This document shows, one piece after another, positions 1 to 48,800 of a DNA stretch of 64,000 bases (positions are counted from its first letter, which is position 1; the number at the start of each line of letters is the position of its first letter). The notes beneath the pieces are model-generated. The model was not told where the DNA came from. It did not search any database and saw nothing but the letters and a program-made list of their open reading frames with translations. Source of the DNA: Taeniopygia guttata (Eukaryota > Chordata > Aves > Passeriformes > Estrildidae); contig NC_133030.1 of assembly GCF_048771995.1 (NCBI RefSeq), positions 54,158,001 to 54,222,000 on the forward strand, given 5' to 3'. The translations under genes and the position numbers were made by a program.

Positions 1-1706
1 TTCCTTGGGCTTATAATTTAAGTAACACTTCAGTAGCACCACATGACTCTTGAAAGCAAAACATGCAGTCCCTTTGTAGACATGAGAAACTTCTTTTTAA
101 CTGTTTGCAAATTCAATCAAACAGCTGGCTGCACACTGCTCTGGGTGTCTTCATAAAGCTTAAAGGAAGGAGAAAAAAGATCTGATTCACATTGTGCAGC
201 TGCATCAAGACACGCAGCTGGGACTAGCTTCTGTGTGAAATAAAAAATGTGCTGTTGTCAAATGTAAAACTGTAACAAATTCAAGAGCAACTGTGCAAGC
301 CACTGAAAAGTGTGATCCAGGAATTATGATTTATAGGGAACAGAAAGGGAAACAAGATTTGAAAGATCAGCATGGCTGAATAAAAGACTAAAAGTTCTTA
401 CACAATGTGCTATAAAGCATAAAGGCTTATGCAACCATTCAACAGCAACAACTGCAGGAGGCACTGAAAAAGAAACAAACCTGTCCGTAATTGCCTTTAG
501 TTTGGCAAGATTGCATCTCTTTTCATTAATTAATTTCCAATAAACATCCCTCCTTTCTCGCTGAACACACCTGTAAATCTCTGAAAACGTTCTATGGTTG
601 CAAAAAGTGAAATTTTTTACATTAAACTGAAATGTCTTTAAGGTTTTTAGGGTTTTTCCCCTAAGAAAACTTAAGTTTGCAGCATGTAATTTCCTTACAA
701 AGCTACAAAGCCCTACTGATTCAAGCCGAAATGAAAAAATGAGACATTCTTAAAGCTTTCGGTCCCAATTTACTTTGCAAGAGTACTACCACATTTGGGA
801 TTTTTCTTTTAACAGTTTTCTGGCTGGAGAAGTAGAAATGTTTCTACAAGTTAGCAGGCAAAGCATAATGGTTGTCATTTAATGTGATGGTGATGGCAGC
901 AGCTGCACTTGCCATGTGGAGGAGGAAAGAAGCAAAGCAAATGTTATCAGTCCTGGTTGCATATCAGAGACAGCAGTGTGGGAGGAGAATAAAGAACTGC
1001 TGCTGTTGCTAGGGCACAAAGATATTGGAGAAATACTCATGGTGGGTATTTTTCCTTTTTTCTTCAAGACCAGTGACAAATTTTTTGAGTTATAGTTTTA
1101 TCATCACCAAAAATCTTAAAAGACTTTAATTTGTTTTTTCCTGAACTCTTCCTTCATCAGAACCTGATTTCAAAATATATCAGCACACAAGATCTTAAGA
1201 GCACAGGGGTCTTACACTACACTGTAAATCAAATTCATAAATCAGAGGGAGTGGATTCTTTAATCTCTTCTGTTTTTGCAGAAAGAACTAGTAAGTCCAA
1301 AAAAAGTGGGAAACACTTTACCATTAAGTGTATTAACAAGACTGAGGATAGTTTGTGATGCTCATGGGAGGAAATGAGCCATACTTTACACAGAGATCAA
1401 ACAGAGAAAATACTTTTTTACTAAATACAAAGCCATTGGGGAAAAATGTTCCAAAATGTTTCTTTGTAAATCACTTTTGTTTGTACTGTGTTCTGAACTG
1501 CTTTATTACTAACCTGCCACAGGGTGAAGAGAATGCCAGACCAGATGGGATTACTGCCTCATGAACCCTGCAGCCTAAGCACAGAAGCTTCTACAAATCC
1601 ATGGAAACGAAGATCATAGTATTCAAACCACATGCTCCTAATCTGAGTTATTTACCTTTGATTATCTTGATTAATGATAAGCAAAACCCTCTACTGAACA
1701 CAGTAC
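1..1706. other. Left-edge AT-rich stretch, no confirmed gene
   Basis: This should hold the 3' half of MOK if the gene were complete, but I could not recognise the PGVNELDQ or C-terminal MOK segments on either strand. Several short open frames exist without family resemblance. One exon-like block at 481-570 is listed separately. Confidence 0.5.
481..570 (-). other. Possible exon of unknown identity
   Basis: On the minus strand a 90-base block lies between TTTACAG and a GTTTGT donor. It is open in one frame (29 codons), rich in Lys/Arg, and includes VYWKLINEKRCNLAKLKAI. Its entry phase happens to fit the preceding MOK pseudo-exon at 1707, but it does not resemble any MOK segment I know. The donor is weak. 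It could be chance. Confidence 0.25.
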
Positions 1707-1879
1707 CTTGTGATTTCATAGAAAACACAGCCAGGACTCCACATGCCAATTTTGTAACTATAGAGCCCATTTGTTAGCAAACATTCAGGTGCTCAGTAGC
1801 AGCGTGGGGAGGTACTGTGTGCCTGCTGAGAATAGATACTCCTACAAGGTCCAAAATCTCTTAACTTCAGGGTGTTCTG
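1707..1879 (-). pseudogene. MOK: MOK pseudogene exon: DFG to subdomain IX, with stop codon
   Basis: The minus strand reads QNTLKLRDFGPCRSIYSQQ, then a segment two codons short with a TGA at 1793-1795, then APECLLTNGLYSYKIGMW and SPGCVFYEIT. It matches MOK LKLGDFGSCRSVYSKQ...APECLLTDG...YKMDLWSAGCVFYEI. DFG is kept. The T-E-Y phosphorylation motif is no longer in frame. The stop replaces the arginine before APE, and the invariant Asp of subdomain IX is Gly. The acceptor TTTTTGCAG is strong and the donor is GTACTG. Confidence 0.92.
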
Positions 1880-2748
1880 CTGCAAAAATAAAGCATTTCC
1901 ACGAATTGCAAACAGTAAAATATTCAAGCAATGACTGTAAAATAGTAATTGTAGAAGAAATCACGGATTACTTTAAGAAGAAATTTTCCAAAATCCAGGG
2001 GTAGAATCACAGCAGTAAAGCTGCATTAAAATACTAAGTAGGTCCAGGCTTGAAGATATCTGTGTCCACAGTATGTAATGCAAATACTGTTCTGTACATC
2101 AAAAAGAAAGGTCTAAGAGCATAGGGACTATAACAGAAGGAAAGGCTGATAAATAGGACTTCTAATTAAGTTATTAGCGTTCTTCTCTTTAGCAGTGATA
2201 AAACAGGTGGCTTTGGCTTCTCCTGTACACTTCAATGACTCAAAAATTTATCTTCAGAAAATAAAATTTCATAAATTGAATTTAGAAATACTTGCTTTTC
2301 AGACATTAGCAAAATAACTTTATGAAACTGTCAAGAGAGATGATTACAATTAAATCTTCTGAAAGCCACCATCTTCTGCTCTCTTTTGTTCGTGCAACTT
2401 CCACTAAATGTAGGCATTGAATATAGAAAGAAAGAGCTGCAAAATGGAACCCTATTTCCTGTGCCTAGATTAACACAGAAACGAAAAGTACGTATTAATA
2501 GAGGATAAAGAACAGGTTTTTAGCTTGGAGGGAACACATACAGGGTGTAATGCATCTCAGTCATTTCAGTTTTTAGCCAGTAACAAAATTGTTTGTTCAT
2601 TCCACTAGACTAGGAATAGAGTAACTGTCTACATATTTCTTAAAAAACTGTCCTTTTATTCATGAATAAATATCACCACCTCAGGGTAAAGAGAAAAATA
2701 CTTATACACTTCACTTTTAGTTAAATATCCTCACATAAAATTAATTAC

Positions 2749-2790
2749 CTTTATTATTATGTTTTCTTGTTGCTCTGAAATATCCCATTT
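2749..2790 (-). pseudogene. MOK: MOK pseudogene exon: catalytic loop deleted
   Basis: The minus strand begins AAATGGGATATTTCAGAG (NGIF plus a damaged His/Arg) and ends GAAAACATAATAATAAAG (family: ENILIK). Only 42 bases remain of the 49 expected. The bases lost cover the aspartate-containing HRDVKP motif, and the frame shifts into three consecutive TAA codons. The acceptor TACAG and donor GTAATT still look usable. Confidence 0.85.
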
Positions 2791-3300
2791 CTGTACTAAT
2801 ACAAACACAGGAGAGAGAAGAATACAGTAAAAAGATAAACATTATCAGTGCTTCCAGTTATTTGTTTAAATAAAAACCAACTTAAAGAAACCAGCACTTT
2901 TTTCAAACTTATCAAAATAACAGTAAAAAATTAAATTTTGCCATCATGGTGAGACAACAGCTGCAGATATGGGAATGGGGAATGGGCAAGTCCAGGAAGG
3001 AGAGGCCAGGCCTTCTGCTTCTGCTCTCACCAGGGCTACCAGAGGATTGCAAGGGCCATCCCCTCCCAGGAGGGCTTCCTGCAGCAGGGATAGAGCTCTT
3101 TTGGGGTGCTGGCAGCAGCTCTGGCTGCCTGCTGCCTCCCAGGGCTCTGCTGCAGGCAAAGATTTATCTGGGCCATGGCCTTTTCTCTCCCTGCAGCAGT
3201 CAGCAGCTGCCCCAGACAATTCTGTTTCTGCCTAGAGAAGACCCTGAAATAAATGTATACTACATTTGCTGTAAGGCTGTTTTTGAACCAGGTCTTTTAC

Positions 3301-3383
3301 CTATGTACACAATCTACAGATTTGCATATCTGGTACATGTTGTTCCTGATTTTTTTTTTTTTCAGGCAATGGCTTTCTCCTTC
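3301..3383 (-). pseudogene. MOK: MOK pseudogene exon: alpha-E helix with homopolymer frameshift
   Basis: The minus strand gives GRRKPLPEKK and, after a shift of frame, MYQICKSVDCVHR, matching GRRYPLSEKK...MYQLCKSLDHIHR of MOK. The exon is 83 bases against 79 expected. The surplus lies in or beside a run of 13 A (plus-strand T at 3350-3362). The exact run length could be affected by sequencing. The acceptor is TTCTAG and the donor is GTAAAA. Confidence 0.85.
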
Positions 3384-6140
3384 CTAGAATAGAACTTCAA
3401 GTTGTGCGAGTCCTTTTTAGTGAAGAACAAATAGAATACAAATATCGTAGTCTTCAGCTTCCAGAGGTGCATTGATATCACCTTTTTCAATTATACTACT
3501 TCCGTCATTTATAGCTAGCTTTGTAATTCATTTTCCACTCAACTTCTGACATAATTTGTATTTCAGTATGCACCAGAATAGCTCAAGTAATAATTGTCAA
3601 TTAAATACTCTGTAAGATGCCTTAGTTTTTACTGCATGTATTACTTGCAGTATTTCTATTTCAGTATTTCTATTTCCCCAAGTTCTAGCAGAACTGCAGT
3701 ATTTCACTTCTAAATATCTCATTTCCTCTCTACTCAAAGCAATTGTCCTTCAGGTTGAAGATTTGTATCAATCACCTCAAGTTACCACAATGGTTAAAAG
3801 ACTGTGATTCACATCTGAATTGCAAATTCAAGGCTAACCTGTGTTGTTTAGCTTGCTGTTGCTGTTAGGCAATAATTACAGTTATAAAATGTATCTATTT
3901 TTCAGAGCCATTCAGTAACTGCTCAGCTTTTTTCTTTTATAGGCTCCAAAGGCCTTTTAATCTTGCTGTAATGCCTTTATGTAATGCTGCAAGGCCATCA
4001 ACGGAGGCAGAAATGATCACATTTTTGAAAAACAAAGCAGGTACTGATCTGTGCGATGACAGCAGTATGAGTAATTGGCTGGGAGGAGGAGGGAGACTGT
4101 CAGGACAGTAACTCATTGAGGCCAGAGCCCCAGAGCCAGCAGGACTTGTGTTCCCAACTGATTACAGTGCTCCTCCAGGCAGCCACATAATCCCCTGAGC
4201 AGGATTAGATCACAAAGCACTTGGAAAAGAGCACCATTTACATTGGGAATTGTAGTAGTAGTGCCCCCATAGAGATAAACGGTGCTTTCAACATCAGGAC
4301 TTTTGTCATTTATAGTGGAAAATATATTATAAAATGCAGCTATTCAAATCAATTTAGATTATGATTTGTATTTAAGGAATTGGGCCTTCGTAGAAAGAAG
4401 TCATGCTCAATTGCTTTTTCATTACATGTCACTAGAAAAATCTGGAGCAGATGCTCTTCTACTTCCAGATTTATCACTGGAGAAACCTTATTTGGCGGTA
4501 ATGGTGCAGTGAATCCTAAGGCAGTGGCACTTGAGGCTTCTATCATTCCTCTTGAGAGATCCTCCACAACTCTCTCTGCCACTTTTTTCATTGCTTTAAA
4601 TTACCAAACTGCTGTTGATTAAATAAAGGGCAAGACTCTTTTTCAGTTATTAAATGCTTCTGCTATAAATTAACAGTAAGACAATTATGACTTTGTGTAA
4701 AGACAAGCTTGATTGGAGTAACATGGATGTCTTGTTCTTTTAAGGAAAAAACACAAAACTATCAGCTTTCCACACTAGTAGCATTACAGTGAACTGTCCT
4801 CCTAATTACAGAAGTGTCTCCATACTTCTTGTCAAATTAAAAATTCATTTTCAGTCCACTTCAGTTCACTTTTCTATTATATTCTATGATTTGACAAGCT
4901 CCACTCCATGTGTCACCACCTTATACAACATTAAAAATAAGGCACTGTATCATTGTAAACACAGTCCACACTCAAAATTCAGACCATAAAGAAGAATCAG
5001 CAATTTATAGAAGTTAGGTAAACCCAGATGAATGTTCAGATAATCCCTAACTGCAGCATTTCAGATTACTATTGAAAACAGATTTTGTTTTGAACTGCTT
5101 CACCATGTTATAGAAAAGGAGGTTACTACAACTAAGTGGTGTGAAAACAATCATCATCTTCTGGAAAACTTTGAAAGAACTTGTATTTTTAAATAGTAAA
5201 AAAAATCAGAACATACTGAAATGATGATTCTCATTTCCATCTGAATGCCATGCTAAATATAGGCAACTCAAAATGTCTTATTAAAACTAGTACACACAAA
5301 TATCTTCTTCAGCAATCAGCAAATAACTCAATTTTAATCTCACATTCTTATCTAGGTCAGAAACAGAGTTACTCGTTTTGTGAGAGATCTGAATAGTCAG
5401 TGTCACCAATGTCACGTTCAGGAGTCTTTATTGTATTACACTGAATGACACTTGCATGTTCAGTTATTTAAACTGAACTCCCAATTGTTAAGACATTACA
5501 AATTCTTAATTATTCATTTTAAAAAATCATTTTTTACTAATGAATTGTAAGCCCCTTCATTTGCTGTATCCAATTCCTTTACTGTTTATGTAAGAACTGG
5601 TTTTAAATCAGCTTTTGTTCTAATTTTTTTGGAGGAACTCTTCCTTAAGCTTTATGGTCTCTGACCTGCTTTGACAAACAGCTCCAGAATTTTTAAATAT
5701 AGAAGGTATGAGGGAACAATGTTATTTTATAAAGAAAACTTATTGAAAGGCTTTTTTACAAGGTATAAAAACTGTAAATCTTTATTTGTTGATTCAATAG
5801 TTTTGAAATAAATGGGAATAATTTTCTTAATACCTCAGAGTAGCCTTGACCTAACAAATATTCTGTTTAAATTTTATTGTTTTGTAACAGAAATTAATTA
5901 TTTTGTGTTTTGCAGTCAAGGTTGTTTGACTATAGAATAGATGGCTATTGACTGCATGTAGCCATGCCTTAAACAATTGGGTATATTCCCTTGGCAAAAA
6001 ATCAAGGGTAAAGGAGTACAGCACAAGATTCTCTATGAGTTCTATAATCTGTCACAGTGAACAACCAAATGAAAAATAATTAACTTCACTTTGTGATCTA
6101 CACAAGGAGAGTTTATGTTTCTTAAGCATATGCTACATAC
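3384..6140. other. Relic MOK intron, no gene seen
   Basis: AT-rich sequence between two pseudo-exons. At 4349-4622 both strands stay open for 80 codons, but I recognise no family. No other structured element was identified. Confidence 0.5.
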
Positions 6141-6211
6141 CTTTTATCAGCTCATAAATAGTCATGGCCATAAATTCAGATACCAGTGAAAGGGAGCCAG
6201 CGTTTTCATCA
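6141..6211 (-). pseudogene. MOK: MOK pseudogene exon: hinge region, still open
   Basis: The minus strand reads DENAGSLSLVSEF then MAMTIYELIK, matching MOK around SGSLALICELMDMNIYELI. The length of 71 bases equals that expected. The acceptor TATGCAG and donor GTATG are intact. The aspartate of MDM is now alanine, a change in the hinge that would be unusual in an active kinase. Confidence 0.9.
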
Positions 6212-7780
6212 CTGCATAAACAAATAAGAGAGTTTAAGCTAGAAATAGAACTTGCATATTGATTTGTACACAGTGTAGAAAAAAAGTATGTAGTTGAATC
6301 AGTATTAAAATGGACATGTTCATTTTTAATTGATACTGTCTCATGGAAGTTTTTTAACTTACATCTGAGGCATCATAGTTTTAGTTTATGCTATCCAAAG
6401 CACCCACTGCAGAGGTCAGCTCATTTATTCCAGGAAGCTTTTTGAAGGCATGCTTTCTGGGCACATCACCCTGTTCAGTATCAAGAAATTTCCAGTAAAT
6501 TAACTGATACAACTTTAGAATAAAAGAGAGGGAAGCCATTACACTATATGTGAAAATTCTTTCTGCTTAGAACTCCAGCAGTGTTCTGCTGCATGGCAAT
6601 GAGTATCTGGCTGGAATCACTATTTTGCTGACAACAGCAATTTAAAGTACAATCATGATGTAATACATCTGACACTTTATTTTCCATTTCACTGCCCTGC
6701 AGAGGCAGACATGTTTAGGTCTTCAGTTTTTCTTGTAAGATAATTGCATTACAGTCCATCTCCCCTGCAATGTTGTATTAAGCCAGCCAGGAAAAGGTTG
6801 AGGGTACAATCTGCAGTTCAGCTTGCAGGAGCTCAGCAAGCTGGCTGGCCAGATGGATTACACTTAGTTAACAGCACAGCAGCTGAGGCTGAGAGTTCCA
6901 GAAAGCCAAGCTGCTGACACAATTAGTGCCTTCCCATGTATTTGTAGAAAGCGGGTCTGGCAATAACAGTGTAGTACTTGTACAGCCTTGAACAGAGAAA
7001 TAAGACAGCCTGAAGGGCAAGAAAAAATATTTCAGAGCCGTCAACAAGTTTTGTGTCAAGTATTTAAATAATGAAGGATATGTCTGCTGTTGCACAGTGA
7101 TGAAATGTACCATGCAGTAATGGAGTAAATGCTGTCATAAAACGTGATCACTCTGGGAGACAGAACATGTCCCCAGAAGACACTGAAGTGCTTAATGAGG
7201 CAAGGAACCCAACTTTATCACTGACACCTCTTTCCAAAAGCATCGCTCAGCTGCTGCCTAATTCTGAGAGCTAAGCTTCAACTACTTGCACAGGGGTGTC
7301 TGTAAAGTTGCCTGTGAAATGATACTGCCAAATAGTTCACTTTGATCCCTAGTTCAAACTGATAAGTCAAGCCAAGATCCTCAAGTACCAGAGGCTATTT
7401 CAGCAGATCAGCTCTGAGTGTGCCTAACCAGAGTACTGAGCCATGGTGTACAGTTAAAGCGCCACCTGGATATGGGACATGAGTTGAAATCACCAGCAAA
7501 TCTTACATGTGATGAAATTAAATTTAACTATGCCTAACATATATTTATTTTTTCATTTTAATACTGATGTTGAAATATTTTGGTCTGTTGGAAAAGAGCC
7601 ACAGATAACAAGAGCTACATCAGACTTTCTCAACAGATATGTAGACTTCAGATTTTGAGAAATGTGTTTCAAACTCAAAAAGATGCTTAAGAATTTACAG
7701 GTTGTCTCCAGACCCAAAAGTTACTGGACATTGTTCAAATGCAGGAATAAAGAAGAAAGAAATCAATGCATCATGCATAC

Positions 7781-7871
7781 AAAACAACTTTATTTAAACA
7801 TAAAGATAGCAGGATGTGGAGTCAGCCTCCTTAGTGCTTGCATTTATCTCAGATTATTCAATTGTTCTATA
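7781..7871 (-). pseudogene. MOK: MOK pseudogene exon: alpha-C helix, with stop and frameshift
   Basis: The minus strand reads IEQLNNLR-stop-MQALRRLTPHP, matching the MOK alpha-C region (family: IEQVNNLREIQALRRL). The TAA at 7844-7846 replaces the glutamate that normally pairs with the catalytic lysine. The exon is 91 bases instead of the 90 expected. The extra base sits near its 3' end and shifts frame, yet the distal bases restore the phase needed by the exon at 6211. Confidence 0.9.
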
Positions 7872-9582
7872 CTAAAGTTGAATTAAACAGAAAAGAAGAT
7901 GACTGACTTGCAGCCAGGGACTAGATTACAGTTGACTTCTTCCCCTGCCATGAGGGTGTCAGAACTTTAGTCTGTCACTGAACTTTCAAATGCAGTTTGT
8001 TTGCTTCCTGTTTCTTTATTGAGCAGATCAGTAATTAGTAAATGGCTTTATTCCTTCTTGCAGCTTGGAGTAGCTGGGCTTACCCCAAGAAGAAAAGTAG
8101 TAATGTGTTGTGCCCCAGACACCAGTTACCATGCCAAGGAGCTCCCAGCAGGAATTTTGTGTTGCATAAGAGTATGGGTGATACTGTTTACTCTGTGCTG
8201 CTGTAGCATGCATTCCAAACATTGCTCAGTGGGATGCATTGCCAAATTTTACGTTTAAAATTAAGTTTTGATGGAAACCTCTTACATGAAAAACAGACAC
8301 TATTCAATTATTGTGTATATTATTTCATTGCCCTCCTAGGCTTTAATAAACAAAAAACCCATGCTACAGAAACTCTGGGGAGGAAGCAGGAAACAAAGAG
8401 CTTTGCACACTATTGAATGGATCAGGGCAGGACATACGTCTTTTCCCCGTCAGATGTACAGCTAAACACCAAAACAATATTTTCCACTTTGAAATGAAGA
8501 GGAATACCTTGTATGGGCAGGTTCTGTTTAAAATAATGTTATTATCTGTTGTTAAAAGAGTTCACTCCATCAAAGAATTTGTCAGTCAATTTATCAAAGG
8601 GTTAAAGGTCTAAAAAATGTTTTAGATGAAAAGATGACAAGAGTCTGCCATGCTTTACCACTGAGTTGTATACATCTGCTCTTGGATACAGTTAAGCAGA
8701 TAGTTTAAAAACTGTTTTAATCATAAAGTGGACAATTCTGTCAATTGTAGGTAGTGCATAAATGGACCAAGAGATTTCTAACAATACAACAGAGAATCAA
8801 AAGCCACATTACTTGAAGGTATTTTTCTTTTTTTTAACTGATATTCTTGAAGTTCTGAGTTACATTTTGAAACTTCACCTAAGAGCAAAATGTCCCATTT
8901 CACTTTGTATATACAAATGAGTCATTCCCAGTGATTTCATTAGGAACTTGATATATTTAACTGAGAATATAAAATCAGTAACACAAGAGGCACTGGTTGG
9001 AACTTATATACTTGGAGAACAATGTCAAGTCTATGTCTACTCACACACAGCCCTCTCCTCTATTTTCCTAATTGATAAAAATCACCTGTTTTGTGACCAT
9101 ATAACATCTGGATGTAAATACAAATGCAAATATGAAGGAGAACTAATACTATATATTGACTAAGGATAAACGCACTGGTTTTAACCTGCATTACAACAGT
9201 ACTTAAAGAGGCTGAAAAAAGTATTGCCCAAGAAGAGAACTGACACATTTCCTCCAATTATTATTTACAGATAAAAGAAAAGCAGCACAAGTATATTCAG
9301 TGCATTTGACAAGGCAGAAATCAACGATTTATTCCTCATTCATAGTTTCACCCTCTACCCAGTGGCCAGGCCCCATTTAATACAGTGGGTGACATCAATT
9401 AAAATACTCAGGGAAATAACCCCCGCAGTTCCAGACAGGAAGGCAGAGTTCCCTTTCTGTACCACATGCAAACCTTTTTAATTCATGTGTACTTAAAAAG
9501 CTTCACTTAGTCTTAATTTTGTGTTCCCTCACTGAATTTAAACATAGTTTTCTGTAGAATTTCCATGATTAATTATGCATAC

Positions 9583-9673
9583 CTTTCAAAATGTTGCTTC
9601 ATGTTTTTACTTGCATAGTACTTTCCTTCCCTAAGCCTCACTTTCTCCAGAACATCAGAAAATATTCCCTCTC
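9583..9673 (-). pseudogene. MOK: MOK pseudogene exon: glycine loop and catalytic lysine
   Basis: The minus strand reads GEGIFSDV, a G-x-G-x-x-x-x-V loop, then KYYASKNMKQHFE, matching MOK subdomains I-II. The acceptor is ATAAG just above 9673, and the donor GTATGC begins at 9582. The exon enters in phase 1 and leaves with AG, which the next exon completes as serine. If an upstream acceptor were used instead, the reading frame would meet a TAA immediately before GEG. This exon itself is open. Confidence 0.85.
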
Positions 9674-10039
9674 CTTATCTTAGCAGCTGGTATTTTAAAA
9701 ATAGAAATACACAGTTTCAGTATGTTTGAAATTATTATGAAGACTGTGTATCAATCCTTACTTTACTTGTTAAATGCTGACTAATGGAAAACTTTCAAAT
9801 AAAAGAGATATTTTGTTAACATGTAAGCTGAGAGAAAATAAAAAGAAAAACAGCAAATGAAGTTTTGCTGCCCAGATTACCGAAATATATATTCCAGAAA
9901 GTAGAAGACAGTAATTCTTAGACAATAAACTACCACTTCCTTGCTCAGAGACATGATGCCTCTCCACACAGCTCTTCCTACCTTTTTTATGCTGCAGCAT
10001 ATTAGCAACTCATATTTGAATTTATTCTTTGCTTCTTTC

Positions 10040-10080
10040 ACAAAAAAAACCCAAAAAACCAAAAAACAAAAACAAAACCT
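10040..10080. repeat. A-rich simple repeat
   Basis: Interrupted A runs separated by C or CC. Low-complexity sequence inside the relic MOK intron. Confidence 0.7.
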
Positions 10081-11220
10081 CCCTTTATTTACAACGTACT
10101 GAAAACAAAATTATCTTGAAAAGCATGTGTATTATGAAATCATTGTTCCAACATGGGGTTATTTGCTGGGGTTTTTTGTGGAGGTACTGTTTGGTTTGTT
10201 GTTTTTTGTTTGGGTTTTTTTTTAACATATTTTATTTTAAGCAAAGCAGTTTCTGATTTTAAAGCTTTATTCCCATATTAAATTCAGATATGAGATTTGC
10301 ACTGGGCCAAAAGTAATGTTTGGCTTTGATAATTAAATGCTTCAAATACAAGGATGTGAAAAATCAGTCAATTCTAATTCTGCAGAATTTTAAGGGATGA
10401 AGCAGATATGGGCTATCAAAAAAAGTTCTATTTATATTAATTTTCAGGTCTTCTAATTTCCATCAGAATTGACTTTTTTCTTTTCTCCTTTATTCTCCTT
10501 CAGCTTTGTGATTAACTGTTCCTTACCAATCCCAGTGCCTCGTTCCCTTCACCCACCTCATCCTCCTATTTCCTTTTATTTTTAGTCCCTACAGATTCTA
10601 TCCTTGATAATTTTTTCAGTAATTTCACCTGAGCACAATCCAATTCTAGTGAGCTTTATGCTGCTGTTGCTTTTGACATGGGTCTTATTATTCAAGAAAG
10701 ATGCAAACCCAGTCATTTTGATGGAGGCAGGGCAGAAAACCTCTTTTATCATATTCAGCCCTTTATGGGTGCCAGAATAACTGTGAGTCTCAAGCTTTGT
10801 GATAGTAGCAAATTCAGTGTGGCTGCCTGTTATTAGTTACTGTGACAACAGCACCTGGCAGGGACTTGGCTGTGACAATCAGCACTTTGTGAGGCACCTT
10901 CCCTGCCTGGTGTGAGGACTCCTTCTAAGGTCAGTTCTCAAGCAGTTTCTGTCCTACTGCCTTGTTTTGGAAGATAAGAGAATTTACTAGCAGAGATGAG
11001 GGCTATTTCATGCCAGCTGCTCTTTGTGTCCAAGCAGATTTCCAGATATGTTTAATTTACAAGTATAAACACAGCCTTCAGAGTGGAGAAAGCCTGCCAA
11101 GAAATTTTGCAGAGGGAAAAGTTACTTAGGCAGGGACATTCTAATGCTGTCTTCCAACTAACAATCAATTTGTGTCGTCTTATTCTCTTTTCATCTCCCC
11201 AGCTCTCATACTTGCTTCTG

Positions 11221-11263
11221 TAAAAAAAAAACAAAACAAAACAAAAACCCAAACAACAAAAAA
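11221..11263. repeat. A-rich simple repeat
   Basis: Imperfect AAAAC units, resembling a degenerate poly(A) tail. No adjoining retroelement body was recognised. Confidence 0.7.
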
Positions 11264-13859
11264 GTGTTTTCTTTCCTTATGAGTAAAATCCTCATATTTT
11301 AATTAGTAGAAATCTTCACCTTGCAAACCCTCTTTCTTCAATATAGTAGCAGCACTTACATGAGAATTGTCAGGTGCTCTTCTCATTTTATCATCTGCTG
11401 CTTCTGTTTTCTGATCATTATCAATCATGCTGCATCATAAAGTAACTAATTAGGCCATCTAAATTTGAAAAATTGGAAATAGAGTAATTTAAAATAAACC
11501 ACACCATCTCATACACTCAATATAGACAATTTACATAGAGAGCTATTTTAAAAGCACAAGCAGAATTTGAAAATAGTTGTGGGTAAAAGAGGCAATCTCT
11601 AACAGACTCCAGCACGGGGAGGAGACCACAGGACAGTTCCATTGTTTTGGCTGTAATTTGGTAAGTGGGCAGTTTGTGCTACAGGTGACCCTCAGCCTCC
11701 ATTTATTGAGACTGAGGAAATAACATCTTGTCAGGAAAAGTCACCATGTTCTCTATCCCCACCTTAAGTTTCAACTTCCTATCTAAATTGCTGAATAGAA
11801 GATAGAGATTGTAAATTCAGACTACTTAAATACTACTCTCCCAGAATTCAGTGTAAATGGATTTTTTTGGTAGCAACTGATACTCTCCAACCAGTCACAA
11901 ACACACTGGCTATATTATGTTCTTATAATGTCAGAGCCAGCCCTGGGGCCAAAATATACACAAGACAGACACAAAAAAAAAATTAGCTGATTGCTGATTT
12001 ATTCTTGTATTCTAATAAATGGCCATCCTGTAATTTTTTGTTTCTTAAATGCAAGTAATTGATTCTCTGGCATTAAAAAAATGTTTCAAAGTCATATGAT
12101 CTGTAAATGAGATCTTAATATCTATGGCATACCAGCCACAGTGTTAATGAACCAAAGTACTTGGGCAGAGAAATGCAGGGAAAGCATTATTGTACAAATT
12201 TACTGAAAATATCTTCAGGTATTTAAAGAAATCAGATAGTATATGTTTATACTATTTGGTTATGTTTATATATTTTCTTCTAGAAATATATTTTACACAT
12301 ACAAGAGAAGTCCAGATGACAGTAGAGAGCTCAAAACAACGTGAGTTGTTTAGATTTTAAATTGCAGAATTCTAATACTGTACAAAGACCTAATCCTTTA
12401 CACATTTTAGAACATTCTTAGAGCACTGAAAATCTTTTCCAGGTAAGCCTGTAAAACTTGTTATTGTAAATCTTTCCCAACAGAGAGCTCTGTAGACAAA
12501 ATAAATACCCCACACATAACCAACCACTGAGGCTTTAAGAGTGAAAAGAACGAAGCAAAGGTCTGAATAATTTCAACTGACTGAATAAAAGGTGGAATCA
12601 GGAATGAAAACTGCATTATTTGAAATGTCTCTTTGATGAATAAAGTCAATGCATAAACTCTGAACAAAACAGGTCATTAAAATAAGAGGGGTTTTCAACT
12701 AGGGACAAAATGATAATGAACACATGACAAGTTATTTAATCAGCAGCTGAAAGAAAATCAGATATTGTAAGAACAGCAGCATAGAAATTTATATAGAATA
12801 AGAAGAAATAGAATTTAGACTTCAGGTGTACTAACAAACTTTAATTTTGCATTCACAAGGCAAGATTTCTGGAGATTCTTAAAAATCCACTTCAGCACCA
12901 TTCTGATCATGATGTGATCACATCCTGAGAGTGACAAGGCAACAAAAAGAACCCTCCAAAACAAAAGACTTCAACCACACACTGAACAAAAAAAGCCAAG
13001 TCAGAGCAACTTCAAGCTATGAAAATTTGTACAGCTACAAAACAAACCTTACTACCAGTTAGATTACCTGAACTTGTTGTAGTCAAAGAGGCAGACTGAA
13101 AGAAAAGGTTAAAAATTTTATGAGCATTGTAAGACTGAAAACTTCAAGGAGAAATAAAGGAAGTGTTCCAAATACATTTGCATAGAACACTGAATAAAAG
13201 AGACCTGATCACTGGGTAGAGTTCTTTCATGCATCTGCAACAACAGATGTGAACTAACTTCTCCCCTCCCTCCCCTCTGTTTCGACACACACAGACATTC
13301 AAGCTTAGACTCGTCAGTGGGAAGGGAAATAAAGGTTGGGAAGAACAAGTTGTAGCAATATGAACTCATCCAACACCCCAAAAAGTGGCCATGAATTATT
13401 CAATAGAATAAGAGCTTAATGTGCAAGAGGCTTGAGAACCCAGAAAATAAGGAACAATTTAAACAAAAATTATGGGCAAGTGACGGAACTCAGAGACAAT
13501 ACCCAACCATTGTAACTAGAGAGCGTGGAAAATTAATAATCATTTAGAATTAAAAAATCCAATGCAAAGTGACACAAAAGACAGCACTACAGTAATCAAA
13601 AGAGGGTATTATAAAAATCTAAAGCACTTTGTTACAAGGATGCCAAGATACTGAGGAAGAAAAAACTATGACGTTTAAGTGATGAAAAGCCATAATGCTT
13701 ATTGATACACGTGGGAAGCGAAAAATAACCAAAGAAATTAAGGAAGCAGCAAGAAGCTGAGCTTCAAGGCCATGGTACGTAATTATTGCACTCAGAGGCG
13801 CGCCAGATGTGCAGGGTGTGAGACGACATGATGTGAAGGATACTAAGCAATGGAAGGCA

Positions 13860-14437
13860 AGGCGTGCCGAAGCAGGAAAACTTAGCAGCTCCTGAGAAAG
13901 CACTCGCAAAGACCTGCAGGCGGGTGATGCCCCGCAGGAGCCGAGAGAAAGACCCATTCGCTCCCTGTGGCGGAGGAGTGGGACGCAGAGACCAGCGCTG
14001 GCATGCGAGACGCAGGAGCGGCCCGCGGGCTGCAGGAACGGCATTCCCCGGGCTGCAGAAGCACCTGCAGCCCCCTCAGCGCGGGTACTCCCTAACACCC
14101 CGGCCCCCAGTGACCGTCAGCTTCCCTGGAGGCTCCGGGCCCGCACCACCCCTCAGAAAGGGCTGGAAGCCTTCCCTCGCACGCTCTTACTGTGCCTCCC
14201 GCGCCGTCCCGCCGGTGCCGGGGCTGGCGGGCGAGGGCCGGGCCCGGGCCGGCACCGCTGCCCTCAGGCCGCCATGTTGCGTTCCAGTCGCCCCGGCAAC
14301 CGCGCACGCGCCGGCCCCGCTGCGCGCGGCACGGCCGGGGGCGCATGCGCAGTGCGCACGGCGTGCCCCCGCCCCGGCCCTGCCCGCCAGGTGCGCGCCC
14401 GGGTGAGGGAGAGTTGTGGGTGTCGGACTCTCGGATA

Positions 14438-14440
<3 letters not shown>
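13860..14440. promoter_or_regulatory. CpG-rich island, probable relic MOK promoter
   Basis: G+C and CpG density rise sharply here, peaking at about 14190-14420, well away from the ZNF839 island at 16.6 kb. The palindrome GCGCATGCGC at 14341-14350 fits the NRF1 site, and GCCGCCATGTTG near 14270 resembles a YY1 site. By position it is where the first exon and promoter of MOK should lie (minus strand, divergent from ZNF839). No coding exon was found in it. Confidence 0.6.

Positions 14441-14474
<34 letters not shown>
14441..14474. repeat. Poly(T) tract, 34 bases
   Basis: An uninterrupted run of 34 T directly abutting the CpG island. It may be the poly(A) tail of a minus-strand retro-insertion, or simple slippage. 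The sequence to its right (14475-14640) is not recognised as a gene copy. Confidence 0.9.
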
Positions 14475-14477
<3 letters not shown>

Positions 14478-14499
14478 GAAAGACAATGCCAAGGTGAAT

Positions 14500-14885
14500 G
14501 GGCTGTCTGGACCAGAGCCACCAGGACTGAAGTCAGGAGGAAGGAGCAGTAACTGGGGAAAGCGTAATTTTGGCAGTGCCAGGTCGCAACCCATTGGGCA
14601 CCTACCCAGAAGGGACCGCAGACTCAATCTGAAAAAAAGAACTGCGCCTGCGGACTAATTAGCATGAAAAGCGAGATGCTACTACCAAATAGTTGTTTGA
14701 ATACTAATTAATAGAAAACTTACATAATTGGTAGCCGAGGAATGCTGATGCCTTTGTTTGTTAAAAGTTATAGCAAGTGTAAAGTTTTGATGATCACTGT
14801 GCTAGACTTTTGTGGGATACCACCCAGCTCCCTGCTTTGTGCAAAATAGAATAAAACCCGAAATACCTCGCCTCGAGGTGTCAGG
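14500..14885 (+). mobile_element. LTR-like fragment (avian endogenous retrovirus type), boundaries uncertain
   Basis: The 3' part (about 14690-14885) is laid out like an LTR: AT-rich U3, a TTTTGTGGGATACCACCCAG stretch, then AGAATAAAA as a polyadenylation signal followed by CCTCGCCTCGAGGTGTC. It resembles the R/U5 region of bird ERV LTRs from memory. No internal retroviral genes, paired LTR or target duplication were found. The left end could not be fixed. Confidence 0.4.
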
Positions 14886-15746
14886 TGGCGGCCCAACTCC
14901 CCGGGGGTGGCGGGGGTGAGCCGCCCGCGGGTCAGGGGGTAAGGAGGGGAGCCCTTGGGACAGGAGATGTGCTCCATAAATCCAGCGGCGGGCCCTGGCT
15001 GCTGTCAAGCCTCCGGTGGCCGGAGCAGCGCCCCGGCGGGCTCAGATTCATCCCCGGTGATGGGCTGATCCCTGGCGGATCCTGCGCGCCACTGCGGGAC
15101 GGGGAGAGCAGCCGTACCGCCAGTCCGGCAGAGAGAAGGGCCCGGGAAGAGGCTGTGTTCTCACCGAGCTGTCTCCAAAAACCTGCATTTTGGAGAGCTG
15201 TGTCATCCCCTCCCTGTCCCCACTGTTTGCCTCTTGCTAAACAGACATCTGTACTTTAACGTAGTCTCCAAAAGTGAGCAGAAAAGTTATTTTCTATGCG
15301 GCGTATGTAGTAAAAATCAAAACACCAGGAAAAGGTGATTTTTTTGGCCGTGCAAACTAAGATCCTAGTAATGCGTTAAACAGAATAGTAGATGATTTTT
15401 AAGAATGTTCAAATATTTTAATTAAAAGTAGCTTGAATCATATCTTAGTAAACTTGAAGAAGTATTAGCCTATTGACTTAGAGGCGAAGTTATCCCCGAT
15501 TACGCGTTACAGTTGTTCCCTACCAGGTGCTGCATCACTCTATAGGCAGGGAAGAGTTTTCCGATTTGCTTTTGGTTTTGCTGAGGCGTTAAGCGTGTGT
15601 TTCCGTGTGCGCGGGCCCGGCTCCGGCGCTCCCGGGGGCGAGGAGGCTCCTCGCCCAGTCCATTGCCTTCGCCACTTCGAGCAAAAGGTAAAATAATTGC
15701 CATAGCGTTATCTTTATTTATTGTAGAAGCGGCTGCGAAATCAGCT
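14886..15746. other. Spacer between LTR-like block and tRNA
   Basis: A GC-rich patch (14885-15140) precedes ordinary AT-rich sequence. Short open frames exist on both strands, but none has a domain or a convincing splice context. Confidence 0.5.
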
Positions 15747-15820
15747 GGCCGGTTAGCTCAGTTGGTTAGAGCGTGGTGCTAATAACGCCAAGGTCGCGGG
15801 TTCGATCCCCGTACGGGCCA
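15747..15820 (+). tRNA. tRNA-Ile, anticodon AAT
   Basis: A 74-base cloverleaf. The acceptor stem GGCCGGT pairs with the 3' strand ending in ACGGGCC, with A as discriminator base. The D arm contains TAGCTCAGTTGG (A box), the anticodon loop CTAATAA has AAT at 15781-15783, and the T arm contains GGTTCGATCCC (B box). A run of eight T at 15830-15837 serves as the Pol III terminator. A34 is expected to be edited to inosine, so the tRNA would read isoleucine codons AUU, AUC and AUA. No intron and no 3' CCA are encoded, as normal for a nuclear gene. All visible features suggest it is functional. It lies about 1.1 kb upstream of the ZNF839 start codon. I recall a tRNA-Ile(AAT) near human ZNF839 as well, though I cannot verify that here. 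Confidence 0.97.
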
Positions 15821-15829
15821 GAAGGATTC

Positions 15830-15837: not shown

Positions 15838-16140
15838 CCCCCCTCTCTTTCCTTTTTTGTCCCATCGATTCCCACCCACCTCAGTTCTGCTGAGACGGGG
15901 CGTGACCTCTGTACAAGGGCACGGCCGCGGGCTTGTCTGTCTGTGCGGGGCTCGAGCGCCCAGAGCGGCTGCAGCACGGACCGAGCTTCATCGCACTCCT
16001 GCGGCGAAAGGAACCCGGCGGAGCGCGGGGTCGGCTACAGCGTGCTCGGGTGACCCCTTCGGGCTCTTTCCTACCGTGTGGGTTGTCCTTCCCGCGTGAC
16101 ACCCACTCCCCCGCCCGGTGAGAGCGAGTGGTGGAGCATA

Positions 16141-16615
16141 CACTCACAGAATGGGTCACTTTGGAGGAGACCACAATTCGTCCAGCCTCCCTGCTAAAGC
16201 ACATTTGTCCTACAGCACACGGCACAGGATTGCGTCCAGCCCGTTCTGGGATATCTCCAGTTGAGGGAGACTCCACAATCTCTCGGAGCAACCTGTTCCA
16301 GTGCTCGGTAACCTGCACTGTTAAGCTCTTCCGCATGTTCAGGAGGAACTTTCTGTGCATCAGTTGTCTCGTATCTAAGAGGCTGACACCTCCGAAAAGA
16401 GCGTGGATCCATTCTCTTGGCACAAGCCCCTTTAGATATTTGTACACAGACACGAGGTCCCCTCTAAGTCGTTTCTTCTCGAGGCTGGAAAGGCGCGACT
16501 CCCTCATCCTTTCCTCGTAAGACAGACGCTCCAGTCCTTCAACTTCCCCCACTGCCTACCACTGCACCCGCTCTAGGAGCTCCACGTCCCTCTTGTACTG
16601 AGACTCGGTACAGAC
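16141..16615 (-). mobile_element. CR1 LINE fragment (3' part)
   Basis: On the plus strand it starts CACAGAATGGGTCACT, the reverse complement of the CR1 3' tail, and runs back into the reverse transcriptase C-terminal coding sequence. Minus-strand translation includes LERLSYEERMRESRLSSL and VTEHWNRLLREIVESPS, typical of the CR1 ORF2 end. It is 5'-truncated, as most CR1 copies are. It ends just before the ZNF839 CpG island. Confidence 0.9.
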
Positions 16616-16892: not shown

Positions 16893-27054
<10,162 letters not shown>

Positions 27055-41805: not shown

Positions 41806-42888
41806 ATTTCCTTATGTGATCATGTAGATGTGTTCATTACAGCCTTAAAATTGCTGATGCAAATCCTTGCTATGGCATCTGTGGCTTCACCAGTTATATT
41901 TAAGGAATTTTGTCCCTTGTATTATCTCCTCAATGCCATTCCTACAAAGATCCAGAAAGGCTTTCGCTCTATTGTGGTTTACCTCACAGCACTTGATACC
42001 AATGGAGATTACATTGCTGTGGGAAGCAGCATTGGAATGCTTTATCTCTACTGCAGACATATAAACCAGATGAAAAAATACAATTTTGAGGTAAATACTA
42101 ACTTTCACTGTTGTCTCTGCTGATGAAGCTGAAATGCTCAGAATTGAGCTCTCTGTTGGTGTCTCATTAACTTGTGAGTTCTTTGTATGGTTTGTTTCAA
42201 CAGGGGAGGTGTGAATCTATAACTTTTGTAAAGCTATTGAGTTGTTTTGATGATCTGGTTGCTGTTGGTACAGCCTCAGGTCGGGTTGCAGTTTTCCAGC
42301 TTGTGTCTTCCTTACCTGGAAGGAACAAACAGGTAATTTTTTTCATTTGCCTAAATCTCTGTGAGGTCTAGTATGGCCAGTTCTAGTAGAATGTTACTGT
42401 GATCCTTTGTGAGAGTGAAACCCAGCCAGTTTTGCCTGATGAAATAGCTGTGAGTATGTTTTAGGCTTGTATGGTAAGCTTATAAAACAGTAATATTAAA
42501 ACATGCTCTGCATTACAAAAGATGTATTTAATCAAATATGTTTCTGAGAGATTTCTGGTGTGTAATATAATTGGCTGATCTCTTTGGTGGAGTGGGGTTT
42601 TGGATTGTTACAGGGTTTCTGTGCTAAATAAACTTTAGAAGGACACGCACTTTTGTACTTGATCTCCAGTTTAACCAGTTAGGAGTCACTGATTAGGCTT
42701 TGTGCATCCATTGTCTCTTCAGCTCATTCTTCTATTGCTTTATTACTGTTTCATAGCTTCGCAGATTTGATGTTGCTGGCATCCACAAAAGTAGCATTAC
42801 AGCTTTAGCTTGGAGTCCCAATGGAATGAAATTATTCTCTGGAGATGACAAAGGAAAAATTGTCTTCTCTGCACTAGACCTAGACCAG
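41806..42888 (+). CDS. TECPR2: TECPR2 first coding exons 41806-42090, 42204-42332, 42757-42888
   Basis: The first exon carries 66 bases of 5' UTR before ATG 41872. It contains TALDTNGDYIAVGSSIGMLY; the second contains CFDDLVAVGTASGRVAVFQL; the third ALAWSPNGMKLFSGDDKGKI. These are successive WD-repeat blades. The intron between the first two exons is only 113 bases. Confidence 0.95.
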
Positions 42889-45800
42889 GTGAGCATTTGT
42901 TAATAGGGACCTTAATTCACATTTGCACTTCCTGAAAGGATGCTTGTATGTTTAAATATTTAGCAGTTACTTAATTGCTCAGTGTTACGTGTTTAGTTGG
43001 ATGGCTTTATTGGTATGTGTACACTTGGCCCAGTGTGTGCACACCCAGCGAGGCAACCATTGGAACTGCCTTATCTTTTTTAAAAGGTAATGCATTTTAG
43101 AAGAAGTAGTGATCCTTCTCATTTTTCATGAAATAACTATCAAATCTTTCTTCAACTTTCAGCCAGTACTTTCTCTTTTGTTTGGAAGGGGTATTTTTGA
43201 CTGATGTGGCTCTATTGGTGAAGTACTTCTCCCAGAATTGTTCAGCATCTCAGTCTAGAGTGTAGAATGAAGGTAACATCTGGGTGCTGCTGGCTGAGTT
43301 GCATGTAACCAGTAAATGGAATTTTTCTCACATCTTGTTAGTTAATACAGATCTGAGATGATAACAAATTTAGTGCTAACTTGAATTTTTTAAATGGGAG
43401 AAAAGTTTAAACAATATCTGTCCTGATTTATCTGTGACTGTGCCTCAATTTGGCTTGACAGAAATCACCAAAATTAATGATTGTCTCCACAATGTATGAG
43501 CTGGCAGTGGAGAAGAAGGAAGAAAATGTGTCCTAAAATTCCTGAAGTTTCTGTTGATTTCAAGAGAAATGTATTAGCTAATATTACAAGAGAAACTACA
43601 TTTCATAGTGTGTCACACACAATCTAACTCTCCTCTTGCCTATGTAGATTAAGTCCATATTCATTAAGTGAATTTCATGCAACAGGAGTTCAAAAGCTTT
43701 TTTTTTTCTTTTTTTTTCTCTTGGGCTTATAAATTTCTTTGAAGTGTTAGTTACCACCTTGTATTTTTAGGAGGGTTTGACTCTTGTGAATTGTGTGTGT
43801 CTTTGAAAGGGTATTTGCAACTCCAGCCTTGTATTGGAAGAGCCATCTTCGATTGTCCAGTTGGATTACAACCAGAAGGTGCTGCTTGTCTCTACTTTAC
43901 AGAGGACTCTGCTTTTTTACACAGAAGAGAAATCCGTCAACCAAGTTGGAACACAGCCCAGGAAAAAGTAACCCTCATAAAATCCTGATGCGGGCTCATC
44001 TATTGATTCTTACATTTCAAAGTGAATTACAGACAGCATGATCTAGGCAGTAAAATTAATAAAACACAGCAGTCTGCTCATAAAAAGCTAGTTACAATAG
44101 CTGTGTGTGATCAAACATGAAATGACAATTTTACCTATTTAGAAAGTGGTTGCAAGTCTGTCATGATCATATTTTCAAGGCACTATTAAGCAAAAATATT
44201 TAGCTGAAAACACTGCCAAACTTCCTCTGCAGTCCCTCTTTGTTTCTGTGACTTGCAGTGAGCAAGCATTGTAATCAAGTCTGTCTAATGGGTGATGTAA
44301 TATTTGATGCAAAAAGCAAGTCACTATCCCCGTTTTTCTTATGCACTGAAGTGAGTTAATAGGGAGAATGTACAGTAAGCACTTAAATTTGAGTTGAAGA
44401 CTAGGAACCTCTTGAGTAGCTTTGATATCTTCTCTTATGTAATCCCTCTTGGGTAAGGAAGAGGGAACCCGGTCATAGAGCAGCATGACTGGGTATTTCT
44501 CTGAGGAAATTTACCCTTGAAAGGGGGTTTATGATGTTTCAGGTTTCAGGGATATGAATAGTAAGAGGAATATCAAGGCCCATCTTATATGTGAAGGTTT
44601 TCTTGGATGATAGTAATGGTGTTTCTGTGAAATTAAGAGTTTAACAGCTGAGGTCTGTTCCATGCTTCTTGCAAGTAAAGGCTGCCAGTTTCTTAGCATC
44701 AGTTTGTAGTGTTTTGCTTGTTTTTTATTAATTCTGGGAGAAGAAAGAGTGCATAGTAGGATGTTTTTGAGATGGACAGAGTGGCATTAAGGCTATAAAA
44801 GCTCATTAGGAGGAGTCATTTAACTTGCTTAGTTGATATAGTGTCTGACATCCAAAGCTGAGGGGAAACTTGTTATTTGGAATTACTGCTCATGTCTCAT
44901 TGTAACTAAATTTGTACTTCTGACATTTGACTGAATATTTTAATCAAAGACTTGATAATTTGTGGTTGTGAATTTGTGCCATTAGTTTTTAAATTGTTTC
45001 TAAGTTGAGTATATAGCTTTTAAAATAAATTCTTTTGCATTTTAGCACTGGCAAATTTGGAGCATGTTTTATACCTGGCCTGTGTAAACAGAGTGACTTG
45101 ACACTGTTTGCTGCCAGACCTGGGCTTCGTCTGTGGAAGTCTGATGTTCATGGGACTGTTCAGGCCACATTCATATTGAAAGATGTATTTGCTGGAGGAA
45201 TAAAAACTTTTGAACTGTATCCTCGTTTAGAACCACCTGACAGAGGAAGTTACAGCTCTCCAGAGAAACACCTTGGGCTTGTCTCATGCTTTTTCCAAGA
45301 AGGATGGGTGCTGACCTGGAATGAATACAGCATCTATTTACTAGACACTGTGAATCAGGTAGCTAAATCTTGTGGCTGCATATTTTGTTTCTTCTGTGTT
45401 TTTGTTCATGCTATGCTATGAGGCTCTGTTTTGGTTATACATTCTATGGCTGTGATTTAAATCCCTATTTAAAATGAAGAAAAGGAATATTTATTGTCTC
45501 ACATTGTCATTGCAATGATATACTCACCAACTAGCTCAGTATGTTGTTTATGAAAATTGCATATATTTAAAGCTTTCAGTTAAGGTGTTAACATCATAAA
45601 TAATTCTGATGCTTAGTGAAACATATAGAAACCTACAGTCTAGGAATTAATGCAGAAAGATATTTTAGGCCTATAAAATATGCCTATTTCTCTTCTACCA
45701 CTGTTGGTGTCTTGAAAAAAGACGTATTACCTTTTATTTGGCATACAGTGAAGTGTTAGCTATTTTGTTGTCTTAAAAATGCATATGAATGCAAACAAGC

Positions 45801-48800
45801 CAGTATATTTTTGTCTAAATGATATTAAATATTCATACTGTGTTTCTCTTCTGCCACCAAATTGTATATTGCTTAAGTTGTTATATTTAATTGCCTTTGG
45901 TTGGACAAAGAATGCCTCTGCAGAATTTAAATTAGTATAAAAATGAAGTTGCATCATGATTAAAGAGTTCTTTTCTGTTTCTTTTTTCTTTGTTTTTTGA
46001 TAAGATAAAAATTTTTAGCCTGTATTGTTTATGTTGATTAAAATCCAGCAAGTGCTTTTGTTAAGAGTACCATGTTGTGCAAACACTGTGTTAATCTAAT
46101 GCCAGTTATTTCTTTCTCTGCTGACTCTTTACAGGCTTTGATTGGTGGCTTGGAAGGATATGGTGATATTGTGTCTGTGTCCTGTACCAACAATGAGATT
46201 TTTCTCTTAAAGGGAGATAGAGACATAATAAGAATTTCCAATAGACCTGAAGGACTGTCATCAATAGGTTTGTATAGATTAGTAAGCTTACTGTGTAGAA
46301 ATTAGTAAGTTTAGTGTGTATAAATTAGTGTGTACATCATGGAATATGGTCCTACTGTACTTTCTTAATAACAAAAAGCCAGAACCAACAAAACTGAAAC
46401 ACATTAAACCTCAGACAAATCCCTTCACATTATTGCAAAAACCTGCCAGGTCCTGTAGAGTTACACATCTGTTTTGATAGGTTATATTTAGAGATCTGGT
46501 TTATCTGCTTATCTGAGCTTCTCATTTGGCTGCAGTGAGAATGAGGGCATTAAGAAATGAAATATGCTTGCCTTTTTTGAGAGTGGGTCAGCATTAACCT
46601 AATGAGATGTCTCTAATCTGTGCATTTGAGAGCTCATTCTGAACCATGATGTTGAAGCAGTCTGGATTCCTGATCATGGTTATCCCTTCAGGATAAGTCT
46701 CAACAGCTGAATACTTTGGTTCTGTGCCACCTGTCACCAGCCACGTTCCAGGGGAAATCTCAGCCTTCCTAGCAATGAAAAAGAAAGAATTGGCAAATAA
46801 ATCCAAAAGAATTGGCAAATAAATCCAAAGAATGCTCACTAAACTTCCAAAAAAAATTTGACTCTTTCGTACTTGTTGCCATCTGAGTTAAATATTTATG
46901 TTACTAGAGCTCTTTAAAAGGGGCTACTAATCCATTTAAATACTCCATTTTAGCTTTGTTTTAGCAAAATGCTAATAAATATGCTATGAAGTCTCATTCA
47001 GTGCTGAAGAACTTTCTTGTCATTGCATGTTGGCAATAGCTTTAGTCTTTTAGGCAGGTCTTTACTCACAAACCTCTAGAGACTCTATGTTTTAATCTCA
47101 ACTTTCAAGTATAGTTTGAAAGGAACCTTTAGAAGTGTATTTTCTGCTAATCACTGCAGTGATTTATCTGATAATTTTCCTTGATTTTTTTTCAAGCTAC
47201 TGAATGTTTGAAAGAAGAAGTTAAAGATATAGGATGGCACTTCAGTATGTGATAGAATTGTATCTTCCAAAGCTGCAGACTTGTACTATTCCTTTTACAT
47301 AAATTCAGAATTTTGCTAATAGAAGTTTGATACAGGGTTTGGGGGAAGTGCTTTCTTATAGATTAATTTACAGGAAGTTTATAGTGTGTGCGCATGCACA
47401 CAGGTATTTATTTTTAAATGTTGTTAGCTTAGAATTCTTTCTTTTCATAAATATTAATTTCATTCAATACTCTCTGAAATTGTGCCCCTATTCATTTGAT
47501 GCTAGCATTTATACTTGAACTAGTATTTGTAGTTTTATTTTTCTTTTGGACAATTTCAGATGTGAATTCAAAATTGTCAAATCCTTTAACAGATACAAGT
47601 CCTAAATTGCTGACTCCGTCATCAGTAGTTTCATCTGTATCATCCAGCCCTTCAGTGGAAACAGAAAAAAAAATGGTTACTTCCCCTTCAGTTACTGGTG
47701 ATAAAACTGGCACTTCTTCAGTGAAAGATGATCTGGAAACTCCAACACTATCAGAGAAAAGTTTTGATAGAGTGGGAGACTTGAGCAATGAAGCCAGGAA
47801 AAGGGGCTGCTCTGTAGTAAGTGAATCACGGAGCAGGAGCAGCTCTGTGAACTCTGTGGACAGTGGCTCGAGCTTTATGATGTGTGCAGACCAACTCCCA
47901 GAAGCTCAGAGAGAAGGTCAACTTTCTTCACAACGGTTCAGCACCATCAGCTCTGAAGATTTTGATCAAGAACTTATCGTAAAGCCAATTAAGGTGAAAA
48001 AGAAAAAAAAGAAGAAGCAGGGTAGGTGCAGCAGAGATTTCCCTGACACTTCACGTTGTTAGAGCATGTTACATGAAAGAGTCTGTGTTTGGTAGGCTTC
48101 CTATATACTGTGGTGTTGTGCTTCTGAAAGTGCTGAGGGCTTGTGATGAGCCATTTCTGTTTAAGATGAAAATCTTTAAAAGTGATAAATTGATTAAGTC
48201 TTTTTAGATGTGTTAGGAGTTTATTTCTTTTGTTTTGCTTCATGTGAACATGCTTTGAGTTCTAATGTATTCATTAATGGGACCGTACAGTGGACTCTGT
48301 ATCCAGTTTTATGTTGGAAATGTGTAATATCTATTCAGCCTATTCAGAATATTTGGCAGTGTCTTTCTTAGCCATCCTCTTTAGTTTGATGAAGTAGTGT
48401 GAGTACTCAGTTTTTAAAATTGTTTACTGTATTAAGACTTTTTTTGGCTTTCTATGTATCATTTAATGTTAAAGTTGAAAAATATTCAGTATGGTTAAAA
48501 TTTAGATTTAGCTTTGTTCTTCCTCCAGTTCTAAAAATATTTTAATTTCTTTCTTGGCACTGGATTTAATAAATTTTATTAATATTGCTTTTTTCCCTTT
48601 TTTTCATGTGTATGTGATGACAGAAAGTGGGACAAGGAGAAACCACAGCTCTCTGGAAGGCACACCAATTTATGAGCGCCAACTTTCTGGTGACAGTCCA
48701 CATTCCTTGAATGCAGACTCCTTTTCCATGACTTCCAGCATAATGAGTGGCAGCATTGATCATTTGAGTACTGGATCTCCAGATCAGGAAAGTATGTTCA

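Follow-up and report, generated by a model that had tools for sequence, protein, structure and literature searches.

Does the zebra finch (Taeniopygia guttata) still possess a working MOK gene? The question is raised by 64,000 nucleotides of its genome (C7:54158001-54222000 of the assembly searched, 1.14 Gb in 41 contigs), called the window here and numbered from its first letter, at the left end of which we found a damaged copy of MOK, a kinase of the LF4-type RCK family. Since the remnant bears introns and several lesions, its neighbours are open where matched, no second copy was seen in the assembly, full-length orthologues are predicted in many other birds and the kinase domain decayed without its usual constraint, we regard the locus as almost certainly a unitary pseudogene, lying at the ancestral place of the gene between WDR20 and ZNF839. 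The gene loss behind this remnant appears both genuine and ancient.

The MOK remnant and its lesions

The first query against the window was the human MOK protein, a sequence that a search later bore out. Avian MOK proteins followed and were compared by tblastn with the first 20 kb of the window and with 20 kb of left flank. With both kinds of query the exon matches stand in consecutive order on one strand (minus). Eleven exons (E2-E12) were located in total: six within the window, spanning 9686 down to 1707 (E2-E7), and five immediately to the left on the same contig (E8-E12, window positions -605 to -2928, C7:54157395 down to 54155072). With the avian query P0121 the expect values (E) were 5e-25 for E7, 2e-19 for E11/E12, 3e-17 for E9 and 9e-10 for E2; the weaker exons gave 3e-9 (E8), 5e-6 (E3), 1e-5 (E4 and E10) and 3e-5 (E5). 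The short catalytic-loop exon E6 escaped tblastn and was located by eye; its two conserved ends reach a joint score of 53, whereas 200 shuffles of the interval gave at most 36. The exons within the window, together with a possible first exon, are as follows.

9583..9686, minus strand: MOK relic E2 (glycine loop, ATP-site lysine), with AG and GT at its ends
7781..7871, minus strand: MOK relic E3, split codons at both ends rejoining E2 and E4
6141..6211, minus strand: MOK relic E4, open, agreeing with the avian reference in 17 of 24 codons
3301..3383, minus strand: MOK relic E5, frameshift in a run of 13 A
2749..2790, minus strand: MOK relic E6, the catalytic-loop exon, two-piece score above the shuffles
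1707..1879, minus strand: MOK relic E7, DFG retained, Pfam Pkinase match at E 3e-9 when X stands for the stop
14139..14285, minus strand: putative MOK exon 1 or 5' leader remnant in a CpG-rich stretch, GTQHGGLRA in common with Columba MOK P0157 (a weak match, E 0.024)

A frameshift-aware alignment to an avian MOK reference recovers the reference residue in 288 of 393 aligned codons, and E2 is 73% identical to the MOK proteins of Charadrius and Columba over 30 residues. The ends of E2-E7 were placed manually, at AG and GT. Their splice phases rejoin the avian protein and restore split codons, for example F at E3/E4 and G at E4/E5. The ends of E9, E10 and E12 were set by hand at non-GT sites; these splice sites are provisional, and frameshifts at the ends of E10 were left uncounted. 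A start of avian type, given as the narrow pattern M-N/S-N/K-Y, was sought on the window's minus strand and gave no match. In the intron that separates E5 from E6 there is a GC-rich block with many CAGCAG/CTGCTG-like words (2970-3210), which may be an insertion.

Within the window, E3 has an in-frame TAA at 7846 as well as a +1 frameshift at 7798, E5 has a net +4 frameshift inside its A run, and a net loss of 7 bases over HRDVKP has removed the HRD catalytic loop from E6. TEY, the activation-loop motif, is gone from E7, where that segment shows a 6-base in-frame deletion. In the same exon a W has become C, and a TGA at 1795 replaces the R of WYRAPE, the arginine of the APE motif. The lesion near KIGEG in E2 is ambiguous, being either an in-frame deletion and a stop or two compensating indels. 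To the left of the window the alignment gives one stop, in E10, and five frame-changing indels, of which E8 has one and E9 and E11 have two each; these depend on the alignment, and other placements would convert some of the indels into further stops. In total there are at least three unambiguous stops (E3, E7 and E10), and six exons carry frame-changing indels (E3, E5, E6, E8, E9, E11). DFG and the YYACK lysine can still be read, but they stand in separate exons with no common frame. Since the catalytic loop, the activation motif, the APE arginine and the reading frame are all broken, the remnant, judged by its sequence, is unable to encode a working kinase.

A sequence-only reading of this DNA had described six MOK exons in order and in splice phase, holding two in-frame stops and three frame-changing indels. 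The tblastn order and the rejoining split codons agree with the former, and the count is right for the unambiguous lesions inside the window (stops in E3 and E7, indels in E3, E5 and E6). Its assignment to a unitary pseudogene at the syntenic place is supported by the exon order, the lesions, the open flanks, the decay and the search for a second copy, in which none was seen.

Constraint, further copies and possible products

We assessed the decay of the relic against a functional set of 69 MOK sequences (64 bird and 5 reptile cluster representatives). At 101 sites invariant across this set the finch relic is altered in 20. When the functional sequences were held out in turn, the median was 0 invariant-site changes and the others had at most 3, with one outlier, P0136 (11 of 114 changed), that is perhaps mis-spliced. 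Relative to the avian reference the relic is changed at 72 of 274 positions in the kinase domain and at 33 of 119 in the tail, while the functional medians are 5.5% and 18.8%, respectively (42 sequences with both parts covered). The ratio of tail to kinase change is accordingly 1.06 for the finch versus a functional median of 3.4. By these measures the relic decayed without the stronger kinase-domain constraint shown by most functional orthologues. A substitution-only neutral simulation at the measured divergence yields a mean of 3.7-5.7 expected stops.

A search of the genome for another MOK copy, as the sequence-only reading had proposed, was run with avian MOK on the finch's own assembly at E 0.001. 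It gave 81 matches among the 93 scored of 573 first-look candidates, the best outside the MOK locus reaching 56% identity over 41 residues; functional bird MOK is expected near 94% in the kinase domain. No second copy was thus seen among the scored candidates. A duplicate with a working partner elsewhere is not supported, since nothing exceeds 56% identity at this threshold, and a processed pseudogene is ruled out by the presence of introns. Exon series at C4 and C3, identified by their sequences as CILK1 and MAK, show identities up to 97% and 89%, respectively, to human CILK1. Their kinase-domain exons span residues 1-291 of the query and, apart from intron read-in at exon edges, are open.

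The genome search did not cover the germline-restricted chromosome of songbirds, which somatic cells lack and which the assembly need not include. In the zebra finch this chromosome is reported to hold more than 115 genes with paralogues among the ordinary genes, many of them expressed in gonads (PMC6884545), and a functional MOK could reside there, active in germ cells only, while the ordinary copy decayed. We consider this very unlikely: genes copied to that chromosome are described as tending toward fragments (PMC10387091), MOK is unnamed in the main texts, supplements aside, of both papers, and a germline copy would leave the loss in somatic ciliated tissue unexplained.

It is also improbable, if somewhat less so, that the locus still yields something useful, such as a non-coding RNA driven by the old promoter or a short protein encoded in the C-terminal exons. 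The CpG-rich promoter stretch has been kept (CpG observed/expected 0.84 at 13600-14600 versus 0.10 at 1-13000), and the old MOK promoter may be still unmethylated, perhaps transcribed, or common to ZNF839. E11 and E12 are largely open, yet the alignment places two single-base insertions in E11, and the tail gives no sign of additional conservation, with 28% of its residues changed against a functional median of 19%.

Some observations weigh against a unitary pseudogene. E4 and E12 remain open, as does most of E11, and open exons together with a kept promoter stretch make transcription of the relic possible. The genome search scored only 93 of its 573 candidates. The even ratio of kinase and tail change is not unique to the relic, the lowest functional ratio being 1.2 (P0165); the contrast between relic and functional MOK is strong, not absolute. 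Furthermore, invariant sites changed somewhat less (20/101) than other sites (85/292; p 0.09), which fits a period of function before the loss, or noise.

Extent, age and meaning of the loss

We used the relic translation as query in a protein-cluster search and considered the best 120 of 1456 matching clusters; sequences of 10 bird and 2 reptile MOK proteins were retrieved. Sixty-four of the 120 are bird proteins named MOK or matching MOK, all predicted and many partial. Assigned to orders and groups by their species names, they represent waterfowl, landfowl, ratites and tinamous, pigeons, sandgrouse, nightjars, swifts and hummingbirds, the hoatzin, shorebirds, tubenoses, cormorants and allies, a heron and an eagle. 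None of these 64 is a passerine protein. A search of the same collection with finch ZNF839 listed 120 rows, of which 33 are from passerines, 14 from parrots, 4 from owls and 4 from the woodpecker group. Since passerines are well represented for ZNF839 but contribute no MOK row, the loss of MOK probably extends beyond the zebra finch and is perhaps common to other songbirds. Cluster members are unnamed (one bird MOK cluster has 45), and the passerine absence is therefore strong, though indirect. MOK rows are likewise lacking for parrots, owls and the woodpecker group among these best clusters, which may be an effect of clustering in slowly evolving groups.

At first and second codon positions the relic differs by 0.086 per site (strictly invariant sites) to 0.137 per site (sites at least 90% conserved). 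With a rate of 2.21e-9 per site per year published for the zebra finch lineage (PMC2911116), the divergence corresponds to an age of 39 to 62 million years (95% limits 19 to 80). This is a rough estimate, as it relies on a single published rate and assumes neutrality, and the looser thresholds include changes from before the loss; it suggests that MOK was lost about 40-60 million years ago.

In mouse kidney cells MOK and ICK (CILK1) are both reported to restrain cilium length. Knockdown of MOK gave cilia about 40% longer, double knockdown of MOK and ICK gave cilia no longer than knockdown of ICK alone, and overexpression of MOK had no effect on length (PMC4171540). Loss of the orthologue is also reported to lengthen cilia in Tetrahymena and Chlamydomonas (PMC6682161). 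The likeliest reading, in our opinion, is that MOK became dispensable through redundancy with MAK and CILK1. Because these two kinases would cover the task of braking ciliary growth, constraint on MOK would have been lost roughly 40-60 million years ago; null alleles would then have drifted to fixation and the locus would have decayed neutrally afterwards. A bolder scenario, which we hold to be possible though short of probable, places the loss in this period on the passerine stem or in early songbirds. A very large radiation of birds would then be a natural MOK knockout. Release of the brake may have eased the evolution of long and variable flagella in sperm and may have altered sensory cilia, while MAK and CILK1 kept the remaining control. 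The idea on sperm length is inference alone.

The sequence-only reading had seen here the loss of an RCK kinase in a bird lineage. The loss itself is supported, but it is not peculiar to birds, as zebrafish, Drosophila and C. elegans are described as lacking LF4/MOK (PMC6682161). The finch is a further instance of this known kind of loss: like those animals it belongs to a ciliated lineage that lives without MOK and keeps RCK kinases of the MAK/ICK type. Unlike in those animals, the remnant in the finch, an amniote, is readable in place, its lesions can be mapped and the loss can be roughly dated. Within birds the ciliary genes WDR93 and CFAP46 are reported lost in landfowl, geese and other birds (PMC10445033). 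These too are ciliary genes disrupted at syntenic loci, but they encode parts of the axoneme, whereas MOK is a length-regulating kinase; WDR93 is reported to be expressed in the zebra finch without exon 6 (PMC10445033). Cornulin (CRNN), reported as lost with songbird evolution and found as a pseudogene or absent across 363 genomes (PMC7759463), resembles MOK in being a pseudogene or absent in songbirds, but it is another gene.

The earlier statement that no description of the loss was known still holds, in that none was found in the titles or opening lines of the papers listed for MOK in birds and in the zebra finch, for gene loss in passerines and for the germline-restricted chromosome. Nor is MOK named in the main texts, again supplements aside, of PMC7759463 and PMC10445033, as in the two germline-chromosome papers (PMC6884545, PMC10387091). 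Among songbirds the zebra finch serves as a standard model. If the finch, and perhaps other passerines, indeed live without MOK, studies of finch cilia, sperm and retina use a natural MOK-null animal, and the loss amounts to a natural experiment on the extent to which MAK and CILK1 can stand in for MOK. Its significance would rise if it proves common to all passerines.

Neighbouring genes and sequence quality

As yardstick for synteny we used the human gene order around MOK, and the CINP, TECPR2 and WDR20 queries were likewise human. To the right of the relic the window contains three genes.

16893..27051, plus strand: ZNF839, open right neighbour, eight exon matches to residues 1-1067 of zebra finch P0223
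30250..34967, minus strand: CINP, open where matched, three matches to human residues 3-57, 103-145 and 147-210 of 212
41872..46257, plus strand: first exons of TECPR2, open where matched, six matches to human residues 1-358

The eight ZNF839 matches have no internal stops; five are at 99-100% identity, one is at 98%, and two (85% and 78%) overrun exon edges. Two joined ZNF839 exons of the window, of which 52% aligned as query, are 100% identical over this part to Taeniopygia guttata ZNF839; the second-best species reaches 96%. CINP shows no stops in its matches, residues 58-102 being without match, and the sole stop displayed in TECPR2 is intron read-in. To the left of the relic, WDR20 (human residues 83-569) lies at C7:54131939-54137996 in two pieces without stops; its first 82 residues were not seen within the 40 kb examined.

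Intact ZNF839, CINP and TECPR2 had been taken in the sequence-only reading to speak against poor sequence quality. All three are open where matched, as is WDR20 on the other side, and generally poor sequence is not supported. A more specific error of assembly or sequencing, with MOK intact in the bird, has in its favour the lesion of E5, as a run of 13 A is a typical error site. It would have to account for several independent lesions of different kinds together with substitutions at a fifth of the invariant sites, next to a ZNF839 that matches the finch protein without stops, five of its eight exon matches being near-perfect, and for 64 bird MOK rows without a passerine. We therefore give this explanation virtually no credence and retain the unitary pseudogene.

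Two further features lie between the promoter stretch of the dead MOK gene and ZNF839. An open frame beginning LSYEERMRESRLSSLEKKRLRGDLVSVYKYLKG occupies 15881-16555 on the minus strand; Pfam gave no family for it, and it resembles the end of the reverse transcriptase of a CR1-type long interspersed nuclear element. An Rfam scan of the window at gathering scores returned one tRNA, a tRNA-Ile gene (anticodon aat) at 15746-15821 on the plus strand.

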